22,367 bases of DNA from a virus, in IMG/VR virus record IMGVR_UViG_3300025897_000098, positions 1 to 22,367 of that record; one strand, given 5' to 3'. A model generated the notes under the pieces. The model searched no databases. It had not been told where the DNA came from and saw only the letters and a list, made by a program, of their open reading frames with translations. Shown piece by piece: positions 2,762 to 14,100 of the stretch. The translations under genes and the position numbers were made by a program. Positions within the stretch are counted from its first letter, which is position 1; every line of letters starts with the position of its first letter.

Positions 2762-3726
2762 AATCGCTTCTTAGATATGTAGGCTTTTATTCCAAGCACA
2801 TTTAGATCGGAATCTGTTCTGTCATATACAGCAGAAAATAACCACGGTCTTGCGGTTATATCAGACGGCACTGGCCATGTAAATCCATGTTCCGTACAAA
2901 AATCACGAACAGGTTGCTCAGTGTAAGATATGAAGTAAGCATCCGCTTGAGGTAATTCTCCATTGGCATCCCATGAACGACTTGTGTGCGTTACGTGTGC
3001 GCCTTCTGGTAACTCAGGTGTTATTCCACCAAACTCTAATTTTGCGGCTTTAAGTATCTTTGTACCATTATCTAGATTAAATTTAAGACCGTAATGATTT
3101 GAAATACCTGTTAAAGATGAATTCGTCATATCCAACACTTGAGATGCAGAGTCAGGAAAATAAGAGGCGGTAACACTATCTAATTCAGCAAAATTGTACC
3201 AACTAACGTGTCTTCCCGTGTACGGTTGACGATATCCTTGAGCAACGCCTATAAAATTACTTTCTCGGGTAAGAAAAAAATCGCTGTCATATTCAGAAAA
3301 CATACTCACAATTTCATCAATGTAAGGCTTTGCGGCTGAATCACGAGGACCAATATCTACTCGTTGAAGTTGACCCTCATAGTACATATTATCACGTACA
3401 GTTTTTAAAAGAATAATCTGGGGTGTGATGTATCTTTCGTTGTCAGGAACGTCATAATGGTTGGTTGATATCCAATGAGCAAAATTATTATAGTTTATGG
3501 TTTCAAGTGCATTCGCTAATGTTTCTGCGGAGTCTATATTACCTAGATCATTGAGGGCAGGTGCCGCAAACATGTTTGCACCTTGATATTCATAATGATA
3601 GGCATACTCGGTGTCGCCAGTCCACGGTACAGTCTGTTCTTTCCAGCCATTAAATTTAGTTATGGCTTTAAGTTGATTGTCGCTGTCCCAGATAACCTGA
3701 TCCCACAAAATAGCATTAATAGACAT
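2758..3726 (-). CDS. Unrecognised probable virion protein, 322 residues
   Basis: I do not recognise this protein. It is soluble in character, with no signal peptide or membrane segment, and is rich in aromatic residues and Asp/Asn (for example WDQVIWDSD near the start, YAYHYEYQG at about 42-50, and RPWLFSAVYDRTDSDLNVLG near the end). Low-complexity repeats are absent, unlike its neighbours. It starts at an ATG overlapping the TAA of the upstream 1245-residue Ig-repeat gene (TAATG), with a GGTGGG purine run just before, so the two are probably co-translated. It shares the late unit that begins at 9287. Context suggests a fibre-associated, tip or chaperone-like partner of the Ig-repeat protein, but that is inference. 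Confidence 0.8.
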   Translation of the reverse strand: MSINAILWDQVIWDSDNQLKAITKFNGWKEQTVPWTGDTEYAYHYEYQGANMFAAPALNDLGNIDSAETLANALETINYNNFAHWISTNHYDVPDNERYITPQIILLKTVRDNMYYEGQLQRVDIGPRDSAAKPYIDEIVSMFSEYDSDFFLTRESNFIGVAQGYRQPYTGRHVSWYNFAELDSVTASYFPDSASQVLDMTNSSLTGISNHYGLKFNLDNGTKILKAAKLEFGGITPELPEGAHVTHTSRSWDANGELPQADAYFISYTEQPVRDFCTEHGFTWPVPSDITARPWLFSAVYDRTDSDLNVLGIKAYISKKRL

Positions 3727-6700
3727 TAGTTCCCACCATTGTTATCCAGGGTCGCGATCACGATTAAATCCCAGTTAATAACAATGTTGTTGCCTGGTGC
3801 CGCCGCTTCATAGATTTGAAAATCAATTTCTAACTCTCTGCTGACACTACCATAATTACCTAGTTTAAAAGACAAGAAAAAATCCGCATAAGGAGATGAT
3901 TGTGTCCCATTACCAATGTCCAGTGGAGTATCAAAAGATCCACCTACAGTAGCGCCCGTGATATTCTCGGTACCTTTTGTCGCAATAAGTTTGTAACCTG
4001 TATAGGGCGCAGTGCCTCCTGATATCCAAGTGCCTACCTTAACATACAAAGCCGAGTCCGGTGTCCGCCCACTATTGAAAGAATCTCTGCCGCGAGCGTA
4101 TATACCACCATCATTATCAAATCTAACATTAGCAGTGGCAGTAACGGGAGAAAAAGTATCATATACTTGTTCATACGCCTCATTAGTGTAACTTAATAAC
4201 GCAGTATATCCTAATATGCCATTACCTGCGACATTCTGAATGGTGATCGTCTCAGACGCCAACACAGTTGAGTTTACATTCTCTTCAACATCATGCAGTT
4301 CGTAAACAAACGCTTTGTTTTCCTGAACGGCGCTCGTAGTAATATCTACATCAAAGGTTCCTGTGCCACCTGAAATAACCACCGTACCTGTAGGTTTATT
4401 TGCACCATCAAAGTAGGCATAATTTGAAGCACTAGCAAACACAGGAAGCATGCCGAGTACAGTAAGAGACGATGTTGCCGACATGGTCAGCGAGTTCGAA
4501 TTAATATTATTGATGGTTCCATTGACCCCAGTAGTTCTTTGTGTGTCTCCTGCGAGCAAGGTAGAATATGAAGAAGTGGCAGATTGTGTGGACAAAATCG
4601 TACTGCCTGATACACTGTCAACTATTACAGGTTCAAAACCCTGAGGTCTGTAATAGTAAGTGCCATCGGGTCCAGTCACAGTAAAAGTTACAGTGGTGGC
4701 TTCATCTGGTGTAGTATCACTCGCAGTCAACGTAAAGTTTTGAGGATCAGTCAGTGTAGTGATTGGATCAAGCGCAACAGTTGGACCTGCCAAACTAGTT
4801 CTTCTAACCGTAGTAAGAAAACTTCTATTAGATTCTTCTGTAAGATTGTCGCCAAGTGTTACATATGTTACCTCTACAGATTCACCGGAATCTGGTCCTA
4901 TGATCTCTTTATCTGCACCTCCTACATATTGTGTACCAATAGAACTCGGCGTAAGACGTATAAACAATGGTTCGGGTGCACCAACATCGGTTGCTGTAAT
5001 TGTAAGTACCAAATTTTCATCTTCTGTAACCGTTGCGGGCATAGTTAGTGAGTATGTTTGCTGACTAGTATCTTGAACTACAACACCCGCGCTTTCACCA
5101 ATAATTGCAAACACACCTGATCCTGGTGCTGTCTCTTCTCCTACCACAACAGTAAAGGTTTCTGAGCCTTCTGTTTTAAAATCATTTGCAATAGCAAGAG
5201 ATACTTGTCCGGCACTGCTGGTGATTGTCAAGTCTACGGGTGCTGAAACGTTTGAGTAACCAGAGTCAAAGTCTGAAGACGTGACATTAGTGCCAGCAAT
5301 CCAATACTTGTAAACACCACCACTTCCTGTGTCTTGATAAGTTCCACCTAGTGTTACATCCACAGTGATCGTATCGCCTTCTTCAGGAGCCAAATCACTT
5401 GGAGTTATGGTAACCGAGTTAGATGTGCCCGCGATAATTCTATTACCTTCTGCTAATTCAGTGCCGCCTGTGGCTTGATCATATACAAATATCTGATAGA
5501 AGTTATCCGCAGTATCACCGTCGGCAGTATAAGCAGTTGGATTCGTAACAGTTCCAGTACCACCTGATACTGTGACTGCAAGTCTGCTGCCATTTCTGGG
5601 TGGAGTACCTACCCAGTCAGCATCGTCAGTGTCAATATCATTGATATAAAAGTAAACTGTCCCGTCAGGAATATTTTGACCACCCACTGTGTAAGTAACA
5701 GCACCACCGTCTTGACCTACGGCAGGACTGCCGGTGATCGTGTAGGCGGGTGGTCCATCGTTAACAGTGAATGACTCGTTGTCTGAAATTTGAAAACCAG
5801 CGTCTAAATTATTATCTGTTGCAGTAAACGTACCCGCAGTAGGGCTTTCGTAAGTGTCCGTTGCGCTAACAGGAATAGAAGTAACCGCAGTTGATCCACC
5901 TAGACCGTCATCTATCATGGTGACTGAGCCTGTAAGATCAGCGGTTGCGATACGACCGTCAGATACCACGGCACCTGTAATCGCATAATCAATATCTTTG
6001 CCTACATTATAACCGCCTGAGGTGATTGTAATCTCTAAGTTGTTACCCTCAATAACTGTCACACCTGGTGCTACGGTAAGTGTGGGTACTACCTGTGTAA
6101 GATACTGAACACGAGAAACTTTTTCAATGTTGTTCTCATTCAGAAGTTTGATAACATAGTTGCTGTTTGACTGAGGATCACCATCTACTCGGCTTTTTAT
6201 CTGAAACGAACCTGTACTGCCTGTTATCGTAACATCTTGTGCTGTGCCAGGTGATGTTGGTATTGTCGTTTCAAAGTTGGTTTGATCGGTTGTACTAACT
6301 CCAAAATCAACATACCATTTAAGAACAGCACTGCCAGCATTGGGCACATTTGTTCCGTTAATGGTAAATGTTACATTGTCACCTTCATCTGAGGTATCGC
6401 CGGCTTCTACGGTTTGATCGGGTGCATCTGTTGATATAGTATATGAAGGAATAAGATCCGTTATCGTAAGAGGGAAGTTATCAATAGCACGACCATCACC
6501 GTCTTCAATGTAGACTGTAAACGTCTCATCACCTTCGGCTATCGCTGTCTCGGCATCAATGACAGAGACCACTGAGAACATACCACTTGACCCATTGATC
6601 TCAAAGTATTGTTTGTTATTCGCATCAGGTAAACCTGTTGTTTGATCATACGAGTTAATGCCGAAGTCAGCATCATTTGTCGTACCGTGTACTCCATACC

Positions 6701-7463
6701 AATAGAGTGCGTCTATGCCATCAGGCACATTTGTTCCTGTAATGGTAAAGACGAAATCAGTGCCTTCGTTCTGTGTGGTTGCATTTACGCTGGCCGAATA
6801 AACGGGCGTGTTGTATGTGAGTAATGCGTCATTGAGTGCTTGAATATCAACCGCAACATCATCAACAATGAACACCTCACCGCCAAGATACATTCCTGCA
6901 GGATGAACAAACAGTTTAAACGTTTCTCGCCACTTCGCAATAGGAACACCCACACGAACCAAAAGCGCAAACGTTTGATATAACTTGTCATCTGTGATAT
7001 ACTTGAGAGAGTCAGCACCGATCTGTGAATCTGTTTCACCTATCTTAAAGACATTCTCTTTTGGATACAATACTTCAACGTCTTCACCATAAAAAGATCT
7101 AAAGAACCATTCTATCGCAAACTTACTACCCTTTGATCTAAACAGTGTGTTGGAAAAGTTTGCTGCCGCTCGGAGTTCAGTATCGTTTGAACCAAACTTC
7201 TGAAAATAGGATTCGCCTAAAAGTAATTCGTCCTCAATATAAGTGAGAAGAGTGATGTCGGTTTCATTAATATCACGAGTTGCAAATAAGTGATTGAGCA
7301 ATTCTGTAGACTCGTTCTGATCCTGAAACTCATAATACTTCTTTAACAGAGTAATGAATTTTGGATATAACGCCGCAAAATGCTCAGGCAATATATTGCC
7401 AATAGCCGGCTCTCTCAGGTTGAGAGAGCGTCTGCGTTTATTAACAAATCTTTCGTGTGACAT
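3726..7463 (-). CDS. Large Ig-repeat virion protein with helical N-terminal module, 1245 residues
   Basis: Residues 1-205 form a compact, largely helical region (ILPEHFAALYPKFITLLKKY; then RSKGSKFAIEWFFRSFYGED; then VEVLYPKENVFK). It resembles an N-terminal module I recall from large structural proteins of marine T4-like phages, and probably anchors the protein to the virion. Residues about 222-1078 are a chain of about seven Ig-like or Calx-beta-like beta-sandwiches of roughly 105-120 residues, with recurring EGD(T/N)xTFT and TITGTNVPDG-type strands; the last is interrupted by a Ser/Thr-rich insertion (about 950-1000). Residues about 1085-1240 look like a separate C-terminal beta domain. The ATG at 7463 lies 3 bases after the preceding stop and has no clear Shine-Dalgarno sequence, suggesting coupling. 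The role is probably carbohydrate or surface binding; this is inference. Confidence 0.85.
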   Translation of the reverse strand: MSHERFVNKRRRSLNLREPAIGNILPEHFAALYPKFITLLKKYYEFQDQNESTELLNHLFATRDINETDITLLTYIEDELLLGESYFQKFGSNDTELRAAANFSNTLFRSKGSKFAIEWFFRSFYGEDVEVLYPKENVFKIGETDSQIGADSLKYITDDKLYQTFALLVRVGVPIAKWRETFKLFVHPAGMYLGGEVFIVDDVAVDIQALNDALLTYNTPVYSASVNATTQNEGTDFVFTITGTNVPDGIDALYWYGVHGTTNDADFGINSYDQTTGLPDANNKQYFEINGSSGMFSVVSVIDAETAIAEGDETFTVYIEDGDGRAIDNFPLTITDLIPSYTISTDAPDQTVEAGDTSDEGDNVTFTINGTNVPNAGSAVLKWYVDFGVSTTDQTNFETTIPTSPGTAQDVTITGSTGSFQIKSRVDGDPQSNSNYVIKLLNENNIEKVSRVQYLTQVVPTLTVAPGVTVIEGNNLEITITSGGYNVGKDIDYAITGAVVSDGRIATADLTGSVTMIDDGLGGSTAVTSIPVSATDTYESPTAGTFTATDNNLDAGFQISDNESFTVNDGPPAYTITGSPAVGQDGGAVTYTVGGQNIPDGTVYFYINDIDTDDADWVGTPPRNGSRLAVTVSGGTGTVTNPTAYTADGDTADNFYQIFVYDQATGGTELAEGNRIIAGTSNSVTITPSDLAPEEGDTITVDVTLGGTYQDTGSGGVYKYWIAGTNVTSSDFDSGYSNVSAPVDLTITSSAGQVSLAIANDFKTEGSETFTVVVGEETAPGSGVFAIIGESAGVVVQDTSQQTYSLTMPATVTEDENLVLTITATDVGAPEPLFIRLTPSSIGTQYVGGADKEIIGPDSGESVEVTYVTLGDNLTEESNRSFLTTVRRTSLAGPTVALDPITTLTDPQNFTLTASDTTPDEATTVTFTVTGPDGTYYYRPQGFEPVIVDSVSGSTILSTQSATSSYSTLLAGDTQRTTGVNGTINNINSNSLTMSATSSLTVLGMLPVFASASNYAYFDGANKPTGTVVISGGTGTFDVDITTSAVQENKAFVYELHDVEENVNSTVLASETITIQNVAGNGILGYTALLSYTNEAYEQVYDTFSPVTATANVRFDNDGGIYARGRDSFNSGRTPDSALYVKVGTWISGGTAPYTGYKLIATKGTENITGATVGGSFDTPLDIGNGTQSSPYADFFLSFKLGNYGSVSRELEIDFQIYEAAAPGNNIVINWDLIVIATLDNNGGN
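4229..6800 (-). repeat. Array of about seven Ig-like domains in the 1245-residue protein
   Basis: The protein-level repeats begin near residues 222, 340, 460, 573, 683, 802 and 908. Each starts with a beta strand and an E-G/E-D-x-(V/L/I)-x-(F/L)-T-(I/V) pattern (EGTDFVFTITG, EGDNVTFTING, EGNNLEITITS, EEGDTITVDV, TEDENLVLTITA, PDEATTVTFTVTG). Sequence identity between units is low, so they are old, diverged duplications, not recent tandem copies. Confidence 0.65.
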
Positions 7464-7466
7464 AAT

Positions 7467-9254
7467 TTATACTATGTTAATGGTATTACCCATACCAGAA
7501 TGAGCAGTACACTGATAATACAAGGTTGGCGGAGCACTCATTGGTACTTTAAACTGTGTGATGCCAACTTGACTTGTGCCAGATATTACTGAAACACCTG
7601 TTGTGTAAGCCGCACCTGCATTACTTACTCTGATCTCAAATGGATGACCCGAATGATTGTGATCGAATCTATATGTATCACCTCGCCTCAGGTAAAGTAT
7701 AGGATCGTTTTCGCTTGTAGGGAACCAAACATTTCCTGTATCAGACAGAACGTAATCAGTTGATCCGTTGTTCGTGACATTAAACGAATACTGTACGCCG
7801 GTGCCTACCGACATACTAATGTCTGAGTCTGCACCTAGCAACAGTCTACTGCCTGAAGCAGACAGATGCATCGCGTCTAATCCTGGATTCACCCGAATGT
7901 TTGAGTTAACTTTTGTGCCATTACCTCCACTGGTACTACCACTAAACATGAGATAGTTTACTGAGTTGGCAGTGTCAGCAGTTACTGCAACGTTGGTTGC
8001 CGTTGTTGCTGTTATTGCGTCAACATCTGTGAGTGATGCACCGCCTCCTGAGAATTGTGGAGAAAATAGTGTGCCGCCGTCGGTAGTCGTGTTATACGTG
8101 AGATCTGTGATACAACCCACACTGTCTTGACCTGTTGAGGTTTCCCTCATCATAAGATAGTTAACACCATCTTCGGGAACCTTAGCAGTCGTCTGTTGAG
8201 CGTAAGTAACACCCATCGCTCCAAACAAAGCATTGCCGGGATCTTGCAAGATCGCATTGATAGGATCATACAAAAGATTGTTATCTGTTAACGCACTATC
8301 TGCTAAAGGATTCACACCACTGCCTGTGGTTTCAACCATCGTGAGATAATGAAGACTTGACAATGTTGCCTGTTTCGTATATATTTTAGTCGCTTCGGTT
8401 ACTGTGGCACTCGCAGTGACATTTGTTAACAGACTACCATCACCTGAAAAGAAAGGTGCAGAAAATACTTCAGTGACGGTATTGTAATTGACTAGTGAGT
8501 TTGTATTTACACTATCTACTCCATCTAATAAACCAGACATGAGGGGATAGTAAGTGCCAGCGTCTGTTTGTGCTACTTCTTGAAACTTACTGACTCGTGC
8601 ATGATCCGCACTATCTGCATTTACATTTATAAGAAGCGAACCATCGCCAGCGAATAAAGGTGAATATAATGCTTCAGTGTTTTTATCAAAATAAACCGCA
8701 GGGTCTGTATTAACACTATCTTCGCCTGTTTGTATTGGCGACATGGTTATAAAGTAATTTTGTGCGTCAACCAAAGTTGCTACTTCTTGAAACTTACTGA
8801 CTCGGGCATGATCGGCAGAATCAGAACGGAGAGCAAACTGAATATCGGTAATATTACGGCCATCACCAGATGCAACACCTCCCCAGAAAATATTATCTCT
8901 AACAGTAAGATCACTGTCAATAACAGTATCACCTAAAATTCTGAGACCACATATGCCATCGGCGTCTACCGAGTCTCGGGCACAATTAATAGTGCTTGCT
9001 TCTAAATCAGAAATATCAACGCCATTGATTGTACCCGTGACCGTAAGATCACCCGTGACTGTAGATCCACTAGGATCATCATCAATGTTTTGGTTTGCGA
9101 GATCTCGGAGTGCCTGAAGAGTGGTTCTCTTCGTAATAGCAGTAATAGGTGGTCCGACATCAACGTCATTGACGATGATTTCATCTTCCAATCCTAGAGG
9201 GGGCACCGTTGTCCCGTCTATCAAATTTAAACCTGAAATTTTTATGTCTGCCAT
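7467..9254 (-). CDS. Tail-fibre-like repeat protein with cupredoxin-like C-terminal domain, 595 residues
   Basis: The protein starts MADIKISGLNLIDGTTVPPL, a short N-terminal segment of the kind seen on phage fibre proteins. It then carries beta-strand repeats of about 70 residues (about 166-463) with the pattern Y(L/F)xM followed by xSVNTD and SPxFSGDGSLLTNV. Residues about 485-595 resemble a cupredoxin fold: RRGDTYRFDHNHSGHPFEI near 523-541 supplies His537, and YYQCTAHSGMGN at 579-590 supplies Cys582, His585 and Met588, which together resemble a type-1 copper ligand set. Similar tips recur in marine phage structural proteins. Whether copper is bound is unknown; the fold may only serve binding. 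The gene has its own late promoter 25 bases upstream and leads the unit with the 1245- and 322-residue genes. The fibre role is inferred. Confidence 0.85.
   Translation of the reverse strand: MADIKISGLNLIDGTTVPPLGLEDEIIVNDVDVGPPITAITKRTTLQALRDLANQNIDDDPSGSTVTGDLTVTGTINGVDISDLEASTINCARDSVDADGICGLRILGDTVIDSDLTVRDNIFWGGVASGDGRNITDIQFALRSDSADHARVSKFQEVATLVDAQNYFITMSPIQTGEDSVNTDPAVYFDKNTEALYSPLFAGDGSLLINVNADSADHARVSKFQEVAQTDAGTYYPLMSGLLDGVDSVNTNSLVNYNTVTEVFSAPFFSGDGSLLTNVTASATVTEATKIYTKQATLSSLHYLTMVETTGSGVNPLADSALTDNNLLYDPINAILQDPGNALFGAMGVTYAQQTTAKVPEDGVNYLMMRETSTGQDSVGCITDLTYNTTTDGGTLFSPQFSGGGASLTDVDAITATTATNVAVTADTANSVNYLMFSGSTSGGNGTKVNSNIRVNPGLDAMHLSASGSRLLLGADSDISMSVGTGVQYSFNVTNNGSTDYVLSDTGNVWFPTSENDPILYLRRGDTYRFDHNHSGHPFEIRVSNAGAAYTTGVSVISGTSQVGITQFKVPMSAPPTLYYQCTAHSGMGNTINIV
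8571..8610. repeat. 40-base direct repeat, copy A
   Basis: This matches 8778-8817 at 38 of 40 bases. It encodes the SADHARVSKFQEVA segment (about residues 215-228) of the 595-residue fibre protein. The two copies are 207 bases (69 codons) apart and in frame, so they could support recombination that changes fibre length. Confidence 0.85.
8778..8817. repeat. 40-base direct repeat, copy B
   Basis: This is the partner of 8571-8610 and differs at two positions. It encodes the first SADHARVSKFQEVA copy (about residues 146-159). Its near-identity contrasts with the low identity of the remaining repeats in this protein. Confidence 0.85.
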
Positions 9255-9291: not shown

Positions 9292-10578
9292 TTACGTTAT
9301 GGTAACAGTAACGATTGCTGTTTCTGAAATACCTTGTTCTGGTGATGCACGATAGATAAAGGTATCTTGCCCAGTGTATCCTGGATTAGGTGTATATGTG
9401 TATGTGCCAGCGGAAGCATCTAGTACGACCACAGATCCGTTAGATGGTTGTCCACCTACAGCAACAGAGAATACTGTATTGCCTGCTTGCCAAGTATCAT
9501 TGCCACTCACTGTGATATCAACTGGTGTGTCAACAGTGGTTGAGGCACTGACTGCATATGCATCTTGGACTGGATCAACTGTGATGGATATGGGGAAATA
9601 TTTCGCACCCCAATCGCCTAGAACACTCACATTAAATGAGTCTGTTCCGTTCCAATCTGGATTAGATTGATAACTCCAAGTACCTTTCGCAGTAATAATA
9701 CCTTCGTTGTTTGTAGTCAGCGTTTGATATTCCGCCGAAGCAGTTCCATTTTGTGGATCACTCACTGTAAATGACGTGGGTGTTCCTGGAATATTTACAA
9801 TAGTGAACGGCGCCACATACTGTGCGTTATCTTCAGAAAGATTCAAACTCAAAGGACTGGCTGTCCATGCACTATCAGTACATGTCTTGACAAACAATTC
9901 TTCGTCTGTGCCGCCGTCTAGATTCAAAAAGTTTACACACGCTTCTTCAATAATCTTAGAACCATCTGCAATTGACTTGTACAGGTATAGTTTCATGTCA
10001 AAGTCCATCGTGTATATGATAGACCGCCTGCTCTCTAAAGGCGCTTCATAATCATCTGAGAACGTAATACCTGTCATGGTAATAGGCGAATCCTCTACAA
10101 CATCAAAGTCGTTGAGTGGCTTGATTGTCACTGTGTAATTTGGTGTAAAATAAGGAAGAATCTGTTCAACAATCTGCAAGGCATCATCTTGTGTCTTGGC
10201 ATATGCATTCAACTGAAACGATATAATGTAAGGAACAGGAGTGTATAACTTACTAGCGCCATCGCCATAGTTATCAGGAAACACTACACATGAATTTGTC
10301 CGAGGCATTTGTCGCGCGGCATCATACTGCATGGCTAATATCTCAAAAGAAAGCCTGGGTAATTTTAAAGCAATCTGTCTCTCAGCGTTTTCGCCATCGT
10401 TCATTGCATCAATACGTGCTACAAAATCTCTCTTAGGAGAGTATGACAAAGGTACTTTGACTTGTGATAATGAGTTACCTGCGGCGTCTTTTCTTACCAC
10501 ATATATGTCATTGAACAATGATCCAAAAACAGCAACGGCTTTTCTAATTCGCTGATGATAAAAATGAGTACCAAACAT
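9292..10578 (-). CDS. 15: Tail sheath stabiliser and completion protein gp15 with two C-terminal Ig-like domains
   Basis: Residues 1-225 are gp15, the terminator that caps the tail tube and sheath and connects to the neck. The family signature is clear: MFGTHFYHQRIRKAVAVFGS, then VPLSYSPKRDFVARID, then PRLSFEI, MDFDMKLYLY and the region up to residue 222. T4 gp15 is 272 residues; this protein is 428. Residues about 245-335 and 336-428 form two beta-sandwich domains of the tandem cadherin/Big type, with the hallmark NPDWNGTDSFNVSV and YTPNPGYTGQDTFIY loops followed by ITV or VTVTI strands. The ATG overlaps the gp14 stop (TAATG) and has a GGAGA site 8 bases upstream. It ends 5 bases before the next late promoter. 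The extension would project from the neck/tail joint; any binding role is inference. Confidence 0.9.
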   Translation of the reverse strand: MFGTHFYHQRIRKAVAVFGSLFNDIYVVRKDAAGNSLSQVKVPLSYSPKRDFVARIDAMNDGENAERQIALKLPRLSFEILAMQYDAARQMPRTNSCVVFPDNYGDGASKLYTPVPYIISFQLNAYAKTQDDALQIVEQILPYFTPNYTVTIKPLNDFDVVEDSPITMTGITFSDDYEAPLESRRSIIYTMDFDMKLYLYKSIADGSKIIEEACVNFLNLDGGTDEELFVKTCTDSAWTASPLSLNLSEDNAQYVAPFTIVNIPGTPTSFTVSDPQNGTASAEYQTLTTNNEGIITAKGTWSYQSNPDWNGTDSFNVSVLGDWGAKYFPISITVDPVQDAYAVSASTTVDTPVDITVSGNDTWQAGNTVFSVAVGGQPSNGSVVVLDASAGTYTYTPNPGYTGQDTFIYRASPEQGISETAIVTVTIT

Positions 10579-11480
10579 TATGGATCTCCGAACGGATTAG
10601 ATTCTGAAAAATCAATAAAATTGATCTCTCCACCTTCTAGTGTTGTATCAAAGGCAGTATTCATAGCACTGTCTTGTAGATCTTCTCCTATAGCATTAGG
10701 CGTACCAGTAGCACCTGATGTTGAACCAACCATAGGAGCGGTAGTGGTCCACTCATGATACTCACCGTCTGAAGCACCTCCAGTGTGAGCAACATATATC
10801 TTCTTAGCCGATGGATTTGAATTGTCTATTTTGACAATCTCACCGGTGAGAGTAAACGAATCATTTGTTTGAGTCACAGTCTCATTAAATGCAAACGCAC
10901 CCGTGACTGATGGGAATGTAAACACGGTCTGAAACGCATGATCTCCCTCAACATTATCAATTGCTTGTACACCCGTATCAAAGTCTTCGTCGTTGTACTC
11001 AAACAATTCTGCACGAATCTTAAACACTGGTATATCTTTTAACTGATAGAAAGGTGATTCGTCTTCTACCTTCGTGATCTCAAATATAGAGTTAGAAAGT
11101 GGAAGAGAAATCAAATCTCCTTCGCGAGGCCTATAAAACTGGCCGCCGGGTTCTAATGTCTGTTCATACTTAGAAACGGTTGACAAAAATCTCCTACGTG
11201 ATACAATAAAGGTAGCGGCATCACGAATCTCTACACCAAACTTAGTGAACAGATCTCCTTCTCCGTCAAAGCCTTCGGTATTCTCAATATACATTTCCAG
11301 TTTATATGCATCATCAAACCGTGATACATTATCATCCTGGAATATAGAATCTTTATTGACCATCTCTCTTGGCATATAATAGACATCTTGTCCATATATT
11401 TTGAGAGATTCAATAATCAGATCTTCATAGAGTTCTTGCTCTGAGTATCTGCCTTGAGTAAAATAGAGATTAGTAGCCAT
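10578..11480 (-). CDS. 14: Neck protein gp14
   Basis: gp14, with gp13, forms the neck that closes the packaged head and receives the tail. Matches to T4 gp14 are YYMPREMVNKDSIF (about 34-47), the ENTEGFDGEGDLFTKFGVEI segment (66-85), EGDLISLPLSNSIFEI (120-135) and SPFYQL (142-147), ending in FSESNPFGDP, comparable to the NPF/SPFDND end in T4. T4 gp14 is 256 residues; this is 300. The additional length lies mainly at residues about 181-275, a Gly/Ser/Thr-rich beta region with a GSTSGATGTPN stretch between the core and the conserved tail. The ATG follows the gp13 stop by 3 bases and the stop overlaps gene 15, so genes 13, 14 and 15 are a coupled set. Confidence 0.93.
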   Translation of the reverse strand: MATNLYFTQGRYSEQELYEDLIIESLKIYGQDVYYMPREMVNKDSIFQDDNVSRFDDAYKLEMYIENTEGFDGEGDLFTKFGVEIRDAATFIVSRRRFLSTVSKYEQTLEPGGQFYRPREGDLISLPLSNSIFEITKVEDESPFYQLKDIPVFKIRAELFEYNDEDFDTGVQAIDNVEGDHAFQTVFTFPSVTGAFAFNETVTQTNDSFTLTGEIVKIDNSNPSAKKIYVAHTGGASDGEYHEWTTTAPMVGSTSGATGTPNAIGEDLQDSAMNTAFDTTLEGGEINFIDFSESNPFGDP

Positions 11481-11483
11481 GCA

Positions 11484-12245
11484 TTAACCCATGAAAAAAT
11501 CTGGTGGAAATTCGTTTTCATTACGTAATTTTTCTTCCAGTTTTTCTAGTTCTGCTGTAGCATCGTCATAGTATTGACGACCGTTTAATTGCACACCACC
11601 TGGTAAAGTCATGCCTTCAAATTTCATCATGTTACCACCCCACTGTTGTTTGATCAACTGTGTGGTATAGTCTTTGAGAAATTTGTCGTTCCAAACGTCA
11701 GCGAATGATGCGGGATCAACAAGTGACAAACACTCCGCAATGATGTAATCACCTACGGCTAAATTGTTATACTGATTAGGAGCCCATTCGCCAAAAATAT
11801 ATAATCTATTCTGATGCCTTGAAAAATTAACTCGTGGCTCACCGTCTAGAATATCAGCAATAAATTCTAAATACTGTTCCATCTGATAGTAATACGATAA
11901 ACCACCCGCAAAGTTCATAAAGTCGCCCATGCTGTTCAACATCATCTGATACTTAATATCAAACATGTTGGTACTACCAAAGGTCTTGCTAAATGGATAT
12001 ACTTTGGTAAGATACAGCACTGTGTTTGGAATAGTAATGTATTCATTTGTTACATCATCGGCTGTTATCTGATGCTTAATATAAGTGGTAAAAGTAGCGT
12101 CGGCATGATACTCTTGAAACATCTGAAGCGCATCATCAACTTTATCTTCAAGTTGATCATCGTCTACATTAATTTCAAGAACAGGCGAACCTAATCTCCG
12201 CAAGCAGAAATCAACTAGTTCTTGTCTTGTTGTGGGCGATGCCAT
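11484..12245 (-). CDS. 13: Neck protein gp13
   Basis: gp13 is the head-completion/neck protein that binds the portal after packaging and, with gp14, makes the platform for tail joining. The start ASPTTRQELVDFCLRRLGSP and following VLEINVDDDQLEDKVDDALQ, then FQEYHADAT, match the N terminus of gp13 from T4-like phages; the C terminus (YYDDATAELEKLEEKLRNEN) is a predicted helix. At 253 residues it is shorter than T4 gp13 (309). It has a good GGAGA site at 12253-12257 with a 7-base spacer, and a TATAAATA late promoter at 12268-12275. It opens the 13-14-15 unit. Confidence 0.93.
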   Translation of the reverse strand: MASPTTRQELVDFCLRRLGSPVLEINVDDDQLEDKVDDALQMFQEYHADATFTTYIKHQITADDVTNEYITIPNTVLYLTKVYPFSKTFGSTNMFDIKYQMMLNSMGDFMNFAGGLSYYYQMEQYLEFIADILDGEPRVNFSRHQNRLYIFGEWAPNQYNNLAVGDYIIAECLSLVDPASFADVWNDKFLKDYTTQLIKQQWGGNMMKFEGMTLPGGVQLNGRQYYDDATAELEKLEEKLRNENEFPPDFFMG

Positions 12246-12267: not shown

Positions 12268-12275
12268 TATTTATA
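12268..12275 (-). promoter_or_regulatory. T4-type late promoter upstream of gene 13
   Basis: The minus strand reads TATAAATA exactly, with 22 bases to the gp13 ATG. It overlaps the TAA stop of the upstream subtilase gene, so it uses no separate intergenic space. It is the first element of the 13-14-15 unit. Confidence 0.8.
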
Positions 12276-14100
12276 CGACTCGGCGCCACGTTCGGGCAGT
12301 TCTTTGTCTAGGGTATGCGACACCTGATGAGGGTCTTGCAAGATGTATATTCTTTGTTTCTATTCTGCCAGACTGTGGGCGAATATCACCAATAGACATA
12401 GCCACACGTGGTGATTCAGTCGATTCAAAACAAAACGCATTAGGCCAATCGTTGCCTAAATCTCCACATTCATTTTCTGCTAATGTTCGACTTCTCATCA
12501 CCATATAGTCATATAGTTGTGCGGGTGTCATATCAGGAAAACGTTCTAGTATGCAAGCAAGTTGCCCGGTGAGCATCGGTGCACCCGCCGAAGTACCATT
12601 AAATGTTCTAAGAGTATAACTTGCGTTTCGAGGATCAGCGACCTGCCCACCGTTTCCATTGTAACCCGCGGTGACACCATCTGCAAATGTATAGAAGTCT
12701 ACACCTAATCCACAATTTGAATAAGACACCCGACACTCGCCTTGACCTGCACTACCGCCGGCTCTCAGTCTTGATTTTGTGCTGAGTGTTCCAACAATGT
12801 AACATCCTTTTTGGTCGGTACCAAAAGAGCGCGACTTCCAGTTTTGTGTTGTCGCATCTTGTAGTGTAACAGTATTGTTTGTGTGTTCAGTGGTGTTTGT
12901 GAAAGCCATTAATGTGTTATCATTACTAGCCGAGATAACAACATGAATGCCATCGTTGATACAGTCTTCGACATCTGCAATAACAAAGTCAATGAAACTG
13001 TTACTACCATTAGTGCCCATTACCGAATAAAAATATCGATTCCCGGCGCTGCCGACTATATCGCCTACGCCAGCCAATTGAGCATCTTCGACTTGTTGAT
13101 TCGTCATTGGGTTGATACCATCGCCATAAGTAACACCACGATTTGTGGCTTGTACAGGCCATGTGTTATCACCTTCTGAAAACAGTTCACTAAAACCAGT
13201 GCTACAATTAATGATAGTAGGATTCTTAAATCCTGTTGCTTGGTTTACCGTCTTTGCATTGTGCCACGCTCGAATATAATCGAAGTCAGTGTAATTAGGA
13301 TAGCCATCTGGGGAACTGAAATTGCCGTAGTCTAGTTGACTGGCAGTATACGGATCAAACGAATATATGTTTGCGCCCGGCGCCAGACCCAGCGTTGAGC
13401 CAGCGGCACATGTTGAAACCGAAGCGCCGTGTTGCCTTTGTCTGCTTATATCACTATTGCCTGAAGTGTATGGGCTGTACACATAATCCTGTGCTAAGAA
13501 ATAATCAGAAGAACCAAAAGCCTCATAACCCTGTACAGTGGTCGTGTATAGATTCCAGTTAATCTCGTTAACTCGTGAGCCGCCCGTACCATCTGCGTTA
13601 ATCTGTAAGTCTGGCATGTTAGGATCTGGATGCCCATCTTTAACCACAATGTCAACGTGCTTACCAGTCTCGGTGAATGTCTCACTACTGGTATATTTTT
13701 CACCCGTTACCTGATCAGGATTTAAAAAGTCATCTGCCCAGTTGTCGATAATAGACTCGTTGCCTTCGTATGTGTTTCTAGAACGCCATGTGCCCCAATT
13801 CTTTGATTGTGAATCATTGGGTGGTTCGTTTGCGCCTTTGTCATACTCAAAGTCTGTACGAGTAAATGCGGTGGGTTTCATTTCTGGGCGATCTGACCAA
13901 CGAGCAACTTGTCTTACACGAGAATCAGCCTTGACTGCGGCCGCCTCTTCTGATGTGAGCATGTACATAGTTGTTCGCGACAAAGGTCTGCGACAACAGA
14001 TATCGATAGCACGTTCTAAAATACCGCCAGTTGTCTCCATGTCCGCATAGAAAGTATCTAGGTCATCATGGCTATGTAATAAAACCAGATATTCTTCCAT
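12271..14100 (-). CDS. Subtilisin-family (S8) serine protease, probable virion component
   Basis: The 609-residue protein has subtilase features. The catalytic His is His224 in HGASVSTCAAG (usual HGTHVAG); the nucleophile is Ser504 in NGTSAGAPMLTG (usual NGTSMAAPHVAG); the Asp is probably Asp155 in VDIVVKDGHPDPNMPDL, with Asp150 the alternative; the oxyanion Asn is probably Asn393 in VVISASNDN. Residues 1-70 look like an inhibitor-I9-type propeptide, with EEYLVLLHS at the start and MLTSEEAAAVKADSRVRQVA at about 47-66. There is no signal peptide, so it is not exported as a free enzyme by Sec. A basic tail (RQRTARTWRRVV) ends the protein. The start overlaps the preceding fibre gene (TAATG), with GGAAG 5 bases upstream. 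It precedes gene 13, where T4 has wac (fibritin). A virion protease that trims fibres or digests host surface protein is plausible but unproven; host intracellular action is another option. Confidence 0.88.
   Translation of the reverse strand: MEEYLVLLHSHDDLDTFYADMETTGGILERAIDICCRRPLSRTTMYMLTSEEAAAVKADSRVRQVARWSDRPEMKPTAFTRTDFEYDKGANEPPNDSQSKNWGTWRSRNTYEGNESIIDNWADDFLNPDQVTGEKYTSSETFTETGKHVDIVVKDGHPDPNMPDLQINADGTGGSRVNEINWNLYTTTVQGYEAFGSSDYFLAQDYVYSPYTSGNSDISRQRQHGASVSTCAAGSTLGLAPGANIYSFDPYTASQLDYGNFSSPDGYPNYTDFDYIRAWHNAKTVNQATGFKNPTIINCSTGFSELFSEGDNTWPVQATNRGVTYGDGINPMTNQQVEDAQLAGVGDIVGSAGNRYFYSVMGTNGSNSFIDFVIADVEDCINDGIHVVISASNDNTLMAFTNTTEHTNNTVTLQDATTQNWKSRSFGTDQKGCYIVGTLSTKSRLRAGGSAGQGECRVSYSNCGLGVDFYTFADGVTAGYNGNGGQVADPRNASYTLRTFNGTSAGAPMLTGQLACILERFPDMTPAQLYDYMVMRSRTLAENECGDLGNDWPNAFCFESTESPRVAMSIGDIRPQSGRIETKNIHLARPSSGVAYPRQRTARTWRRVV

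Follow-up and report, generated by a model that had tools for sequence, protein, structure and literature searches.

The closest described counterpart of the protein reported here is the tail sheath terminator gp15 of phage T4 (PDB 4hud, 4huh, 3j2m and 9mkb), which has the same core and the same place after gp13 and gp14 but carries no Ig-like domains. Its residues 203-245 are reported to contact the C-terminal region of gp14 (PMC12270204). Ig-like domains are exposed on other structural proteins of phage virions, among them lambda gpV, T5 pb6 and T4 Hoc (PMC8718954, PMC9022992), and a review of the subject distinguishes five classes of Ig-bearing phage proteins, among which its relevant passages name no terminators (PMC9022992). 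In the collars of the Agrobacterium phages Milano and 7-7-1, a decorating domain is inserted in a wall domain, and the protein forms pentadecameric rings (PMC10491603, PMC12796354). The authors of the Milano structure liken its decorating domain to glycan-interacting and surface-binding proteins, and their account calls the function of the collar unknown (PMC10491603).

The window analyzed here, a stretch of 22,367 nucleotides from the IMG/VR virus record IMGVR_UViG_3300025897_000098, contains a minus-strand frame at 9292-10578 that is open over 428 codons and codes for a gp15-type tail-sheath terminator of 428 amino acids with a C-terminal pair of Ig-like domains. The gp15 core occupies residues 1-216 (9931-10578, minus strand). 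PF16724, the family of the T4 gp15 tail sheath stabiliser, spans residues 5-219 (E = 2.9e-63, 213.8 bits; Pfam cut-off 25), phrog_227 matches the core with an E-value of 5.3e-69, and a sequence search of the PDB aligned T4 gp15 with residues 1-217 (E = 6e-20). The modelled core also resembles T4 gp15 in fold, with a Z score of 17.8 to 4hud (rmsd 3.9, 178 residues aligned) and a Foldseek E-value of 6.7e-13 to chain AB of 9mkb. A preliminary description had assigned the N-terminal part to gp15 and contrasted its 428 residues with 272 in T4, and both statements agree with these data and with the length of the T4 protein in 3j2m. PADLOC returned no match for gp15.

Beyond the core lies a linker of low model confidence (residues 217-237; 9868-9930, minus strand), which, judged by pLDDT and by the tail profile and motif described below, sits at the place of the C-terminal tail of plain gp15. 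It is followed on the same strand by Ig1, at about residues 238-335 (9574-9867), and Ig2, at about residues 338-428 (9295-9567). The C-terminal part scores above the Pfam cut-offs of Big_9 (67.6 bits in two stretches; cut-off 23.6), which covers both domains, and of Cadherin_5 (33.2 bits; cut-off 26.5), which contributes to the assignment of Ig1. The Ig part of all 13 Ig-type members scanned, as we call gp15 proteins with this C-terminal pair, matches both families. Comparison by hhalign shows the two domains to be related (95.8% over 44 columns). The two C-terminal Ig-like modules proposed earlier are therefore present. They had been placed at residues 245-428, which with the stop codon correspond to 9292-9846; Ig folds are indeed predicted within that interval, although the modelled Ig1 starts slightly earlier, near residue 238.

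An AlphaFold model of the whole chain, based on 45 sequences, had a mean pLDDT of 77.1 and a pTM of 0.44, with values below 50 at residues 1-7, 181-183, 204-219 and 225-237. The Ig pair modelled alone from 13 sequences gave two beta-sandwiches (mean pLDDT 88.1, pTM 0.71), and pLDDT in the Ig domain models was mostly above 80. The low-confidence linker precedes both sandwiches, so that the tether of the pair is predicted to be flexible, and the single-chain model does not fix how the two Ig domains are arranged toward one another or toward the core.

The window is a metagenomic contig, and the fusion might in principle be an artefact of assembly or sequencing. An identical protein (100%) occurs in at least five IMG/VR contigs and a 91% identical one in at least two, with the same junction and frame, but identical contigs may not be independent and these five may in part be re-assemblies of the same samples. 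Stronger proof of the fusion comes from the diverged relatives. Thirteen further contigs, six and then seven more, share the junction and frame at 48-73% best-segment identity. The fusion was thus recovered in at least 20 IMG/VR contigs that represent 15 distinct proteins (12 complete), with identities down to 48%; in three contigs (L085, L086 and L087) the contig end falls inside the Ig part. Change along the whole frame is mostly synonymous, and no independent contig has a stop codon between the two parts, in keeping with the earlier observation that the reading frame is unbroken at the junction. With diverged relatives that share the junction region and fall in one clade, there is virtually no chance that the fusion is an artefact, and we consider that explanation ruled out.

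When 119 gp15 cores were placed in a tree, those of 13 distinct Ig-type proteins formed a single clade (support 100/98), recovered in 100% of 200 bootstrap trees. The nearest to this clade among the proteins listed are L014, L025 and L029, plain gp15 proteins of 265 amino acids, and the joint group has a support of 98/88. The IMG/VR relatives were drawn from lists of the best 80 matches, so the 12 Ig-types among 116 distinct complete gp15 proteins are no census, and other origins of the Ig pair could be missed by a tree built from these lists. A tblastn search with the Ig pair (residues 216-428) found no match among 50,697 phage records; gp15 matched 2305 phage records, none of them across 80% of the query. 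Metagenome-assembled genome bins yielded four gp15 relatives of 248-423 amino acids, and all of these alignments end by residue 261. In seven Ig-type contigs scanned, one of them 153 kb long, Big_9 exceeded its cut-off solely in gp15 frames, and it did so nowhere in the plain-gp15 contig L025. Big_9 is nonetheless a common cellular domain, present in five of 14 control genomes. A scan of eight contigs for psbA (PF00124) found none. The titles, opening parts of abstracts and passages returned by a literature search held no description of Ig-like domains on a T4-type gp15.

Plain gp15 has a conserved C-terminal tail, and sequence comparison indicates that the Ig pair stands in its place. Among the matches listed, a tail motif is carried by 62 of 94 plain proteins, by one of ten otherwise extended proteins and by none of the 12 Ig-types (distinct complete gp15 in each case). 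A profile of plain gp15, made from half of that set, aligned as far as position 251-258 of 259 with the 47 plain proteins held out, and as far as 219-252 (median 224) with the Ig-types. PF16724 alignments of the seven Ig-types scanned stop at model position 206-213 of 245, and the residues GP, which 87 of 104 other proteins among the matches listed have near residue 204, are missing there from all 12 Ig-types. Four of the 12 align weakly into the tail region, to profile position 242-252 of 259, so "exchanged" could in part mean "diverged". The earlier wording, that gp15 is extended by the Ig pair, holds for the presence of the pair but not for the tail, which is no longer recognizable. Simple addition after an intact gp15 is rejected for most members, from which the tail motif is missing.

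The absence of the tail from the very proteins that bear the Ig pair bears on what the pair does. The main rival to an adhesive role is a structural one, in which the pair would clamp either the gp14-gp15 joint or the first disc of the sheath and so reinforce the junction of neck and sheath in place of the lost tail. The region altered in Ig-type gp15, after about residue 203, is also the one with which T4 gp15 contacts gp14 (203-245, PMC12270204). The C-terminus of the XM1 terminator is described as entering the sheath (PMC10457771), as is the C-terminal arm of the Milano terminator, so that some compensation would be required where the tail is lost. In Staphylococcus phage 812, the terminator's beta-sandwich is reported to bind and lock the sheath, with the C-terminal strand complementing domain I of the sheath; both the sandwich and the decoration proteins of the neck are interpreted as structural, the latter as probably reinforcing the neck (PMC12886913). 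A collar spike of XM1, whose N-terminal domain is called Ig-like, attaches to the stopper and terminator (PMC10457771). Against a clamp, the linker is predicted to be floppy and the sheath is of similar length in both groups: among six contigs searched, the five with a match gave open sheath frames with lengths of 583-616 in the Ig-types and 597 in plain L025, with no altered length in the Ig-types. A compensating change in gp14, sought in the end motif of 11 distinct Ig-type gp14 proteins, was not seen either; the motif DF[ST]ExNPFG is present in all 11 and, among the matches listed, in 93 of 102 others.

Rates of change also argue against a clamp, since change is fastest in the Ig domains, and both the core and the gp14 end are conserved. 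In the L001/L006 pair, dN/dS was 0.07 for the core, 0.36 for Ig1 and 0.15 for Ig2; Ig1 changed faster than the core (Fisher p = 0.0005), whereas Ig2 did not (p = 0.72). Pooling five close pairs gave 74 synonymous and 18 non-synonymous changes in the core versus 56 and 59 in the Ig part (p = 2.9e-6; these and the following figures are rounded Nei-Gojobori counts). The contrast persisted without L084/L085, a pair whose difference lies at a contig end (68 and 17 versus 47 and 46, p = 4e-5), and when L001/L006 was left out as well (p = 0.02). In the larger comparisons dN/dS is below one, which indicates that the Ig domains are kept under constraint. The proteins of L084 and L085 are 99-100% identical over the core and Ig1 and 76% identical at the start of Ig2 (residues about 335-375), but L085 ends within Ig2 and an assembly fault may lie behind the lower figure. 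Weighing these observations, we regard a structural clamp as somewhat unlikely.

The best match of the whole model in the PDB outside gp15 is the Milano collar protein gp13 (Z = 13.1, rmsd 1.2, 84 residues aligned, 21% identity), on whose residues 69-153 residues 338-428 (Ig2) superpose; the 7-7-1 collar is next (Z = 11.9, 85 aligned). With the Ig pair alone as query the same two collars lead, at Z = 12.2 and 11.1, and the following row scores 9.3. A profile of the Ig pair searched against 177,635 PDB sequences matched an RTX protein (3e-7), the Milano collar (2.7e-5) and the 7-7-1 collar (0.0019), together with two further weak matches. Milano gp13 itself exceeds the Big_9 cut-off (27.8 versus 23.6 bits), and Ig2 and the Milano collar domain, compared as a single pair by hhalign, gave 91%. 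With the whole model and the Ig pair as queries, rather than the wall domain itself, matches to the collar proteins were confined to the decorating domain, and we do not class the terminator as a collar protein. Other Foldseek rows (a fucoidan hydrolase, transpeptidases, titin and cadherins) were read as common Ig-type folds only; such folds match many proteins.

The preliminary description had called the added domains weak adhesion modules, which fits their predicted family, given the RTX protein as top profile match and the cadherin/adhesin-type folds of the models. We accordingly favor the following reading, to which, taken whole, we give about even chances. The core of a gp15-type sheath terminator would join gp14 to the tail, and a single exchange, in the clade's ancestor, would have put two adhesin-type (Big_9/cadherin-like) Ig domains in place of the protein's own C-terminal tail. 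If this gp15 forms a hexamer as in T4, the neck would be surrounded by six Ig pairs on flexible tethers, twelve domains in all. They probably lie outside it, pointing outward, where they could provide weak, low-affinity binding to a host surface or polysaccharide. Weak adhesion is the most likely use of the pair: it belongs to an adhesin-like family, its closest relatives of solved structure are neck decorations, and it is the most variable part of the protein. Some caution is advisable, since in phage A-1(L) the neck fibre's carbohydrate-binding module is reported not to have bound the host (PMC10966104).

The neighborhood of the gene has changed along with its C-terminus. The window keeps the order gp13-gp14-gp15: a gp14-type neck (head closure) gene lies directly upstream of gp15 (10578-11480; PF11649, phrog_460), preceded by a gp13-type head-tail adaptor gene (11484-12245; phrog_211); these and all further window genes given with coordinates are on the minus strand. 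Directly downstream of gp15 is a gene for a 595-residue fibre-type structural protein (7467-9254), which matches phrog_677, "baseplate wedge tail fiber protein connector", at residues 388-595. The next gene of the same cassette (3726-7463) encodes 1245 residues with a baseplate-wedge-like N-terminal part (PF23786 at 106-191); after it comes a long, repetitive-looking region with no Pfam match. The cassette lies between gp15 and the gene for the small, gp16-type terminase subunit (2317-2676; PF11053), so that gp15 is not directly followed by gp16-gp17 and three genes intervene. In 110 of 113 plain loci among the matches listed, the start of gp16 or gp17 lies no more than 600 nt from gp15, and a terminase gene is equally close in nine of 11 otherwise extended gp15 loci; the direct order gp15-gp16-gp17 is not, however, a defining trait of the gp15 protein. 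A fibre or wedge gene, scored as a relative of the window's 595-residue or 1245-residue protein, follows gp15 in 24 of 24 Ig loci and 17 of 17 testable contigs among the matches listed. These 24 loci comprise 17 distinct contigs and seven repeats, and L084 has only 645 nt downstream. In two of the 24 the terminase lies farther downstream, and in the rest it is beyond the flank that was fetched.

The co-occurrence of the altered C-terminus and the inserted cassette suggests one recombination event. It also raises the question of whether other parts of the virion, such as the fibres coded by the cassette, dock on the Ig pair as on a collar, in the way that T4 neck fibres are described as meeting and holding the long tail fibres (PMC12270204). 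The constant presence of the cassette after Ig-type gp15 would be expected on that account, but it may merely reflect the one recombination event, and the cassette proteins diverge strongly among members. A Fibritin_C search found no match in six records, but none in 14 control genomes either, and is hence uninformative. We consider docking unlikely, and retain weak adhesion as the preferred role of the pair.

Two other genes in the window deserve mention. Amid the neck genes, just upstream of gp13, a frame at 12271-14100 encodes a 609-residue subtilase-family (S8) protein with what are presumably the catalytic motifs D, H (HGA, 224) and S (GTSAG, 502). It is 44% identical to its counterpart in L006, whereas the adjacent gp13 and gp14 are 95-97% identical, so the subtilase looks exchanged or fast-changing. 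Downstream of the large terminase gene, a 183-residue protein (172-723) has a sub-cut-off match to Oxygenase-NA (22.5 versus 26.2 bits).

Additions at the C-terminus of gp15 are not confined to Ig domains. Extended proteins include L055 (493 amino acids), L128 (423), seven of 324-349 (L134, L152, L123, L125, L130, L140 and L147), Vibrio phage 1.081.O (L081, 411) and Campylobacter phage CPt10 (456); Big_9 was found in none of those scanned (L055, L128, L134, L125, L081, L152, L147 and CPt10). The gp15 of L055 (1661-3142) retains the tail and then adds a region closing with a cupredoxin-like motif. A similar end, the stretch YYQCTAHSGMG, which we take from its motif to be cupredoxin-like, closes the 595-residue fibre protein (7467-9254) without a Pfam match, and a scan with the C-terminal part of the L055 protein found 449 related stretches in viral contigs. 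The gp15 proteins of L134 (5001-6050) and L152 (5001-6044), about 348 residues long, have an insert followed, close to the C-terminus, by a tail-like motif (DDFGF) out of its usual position, and that of L081 (3992-5227) ends in a run of YSTEWDY-type repeats, which is coding sequence although the record annotates parts of it as CRISPR spacers. Inserts of some 200-300 residues precede the conserved end of gp14 in L053 (4448-5998), L070 (2617-4392), L105 (2582-4336) and L014 (2950-4903). In L053, Laminin_G_3 is barely above its cut-off (28.7 versus 27.6); in L014, gp14 is split across two overlapping frames, the second of which holds the gp14 end.

The varied gp15 C-termini and the gp14 of L053 suggest that T4-like neck rings are open to accessory modules. 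A bolder extension is that the terminator itself became a collar, one recombination at the 3' end of gene 15 having exchanged the tail for the Ig pair and introduced the fibre/wedge cassette to produce a six-armed adhesive crown. This crown would have arisen independently of the collars of the flagellum-binding phages Milano and 7-7-1, which bear a domain of the same type at the corresponding site. On that view contractile-tailed phages would use the neck generally for adhesion and fill it with interchangeable modules (Ig domains on gp15, Laminin_G_3 in L053 gp14, the cupredoxin-like part on L055 gp15). We offer this with considerable doubt. An assembly-critical ring protein does nevertheless tolerate, and has long retained, a swapped C-terminus with adhesin-type domains. 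If these bind host surfaces, the neck joins the capsid and the tail tip as a site for adhesion modules, and the C-terminus of gp15 would be a natural display site with six copies per virion; if they clamp the sheath instead, they are an example of the replacement of one end of a conserved joint.

The fusion is real and conserved. Ig modules are known from other phage structural proteins, but gp15 is an uncommon carrier for them. The neck or tail terminator had been called an unusual place for such domains, and the five classes of the review (PMC9022992) agree with that; the Milano and 7-7-1 collars and the phage 812 terminator are precedents nonetheless. Lambda gpV, T5 pb6 and T4 Hoc use other Ig families and carriers, in up to hundreds of copies along the tail or head, compared with a presumed six for the Ig-type terminator. 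The RTX protein of PDB 36gk, the top PDB sequence match of Ig2 (1.9e-4 with Ig2 alone, 3e-7 with the profile), was so named by its depositors and, by that name, is not a phage protein, unlike gp15. The phage 812 terminator (gp99) likewise has an extra beta-sandwich, described as binding the sheath (PMC12886913). Nearest to Ig2 are the collars of Milano (gp13) and 7-7-1 (gp118), which share the fold of Ig2 (Z = 11-13, rmsd 1.2-1.8) and, like Ig-type gp15, place a Big_9-type domain at the neck; there the carrier is a separate protein with the domain set into its wall, whereas Ig2 hangs on the terminator.
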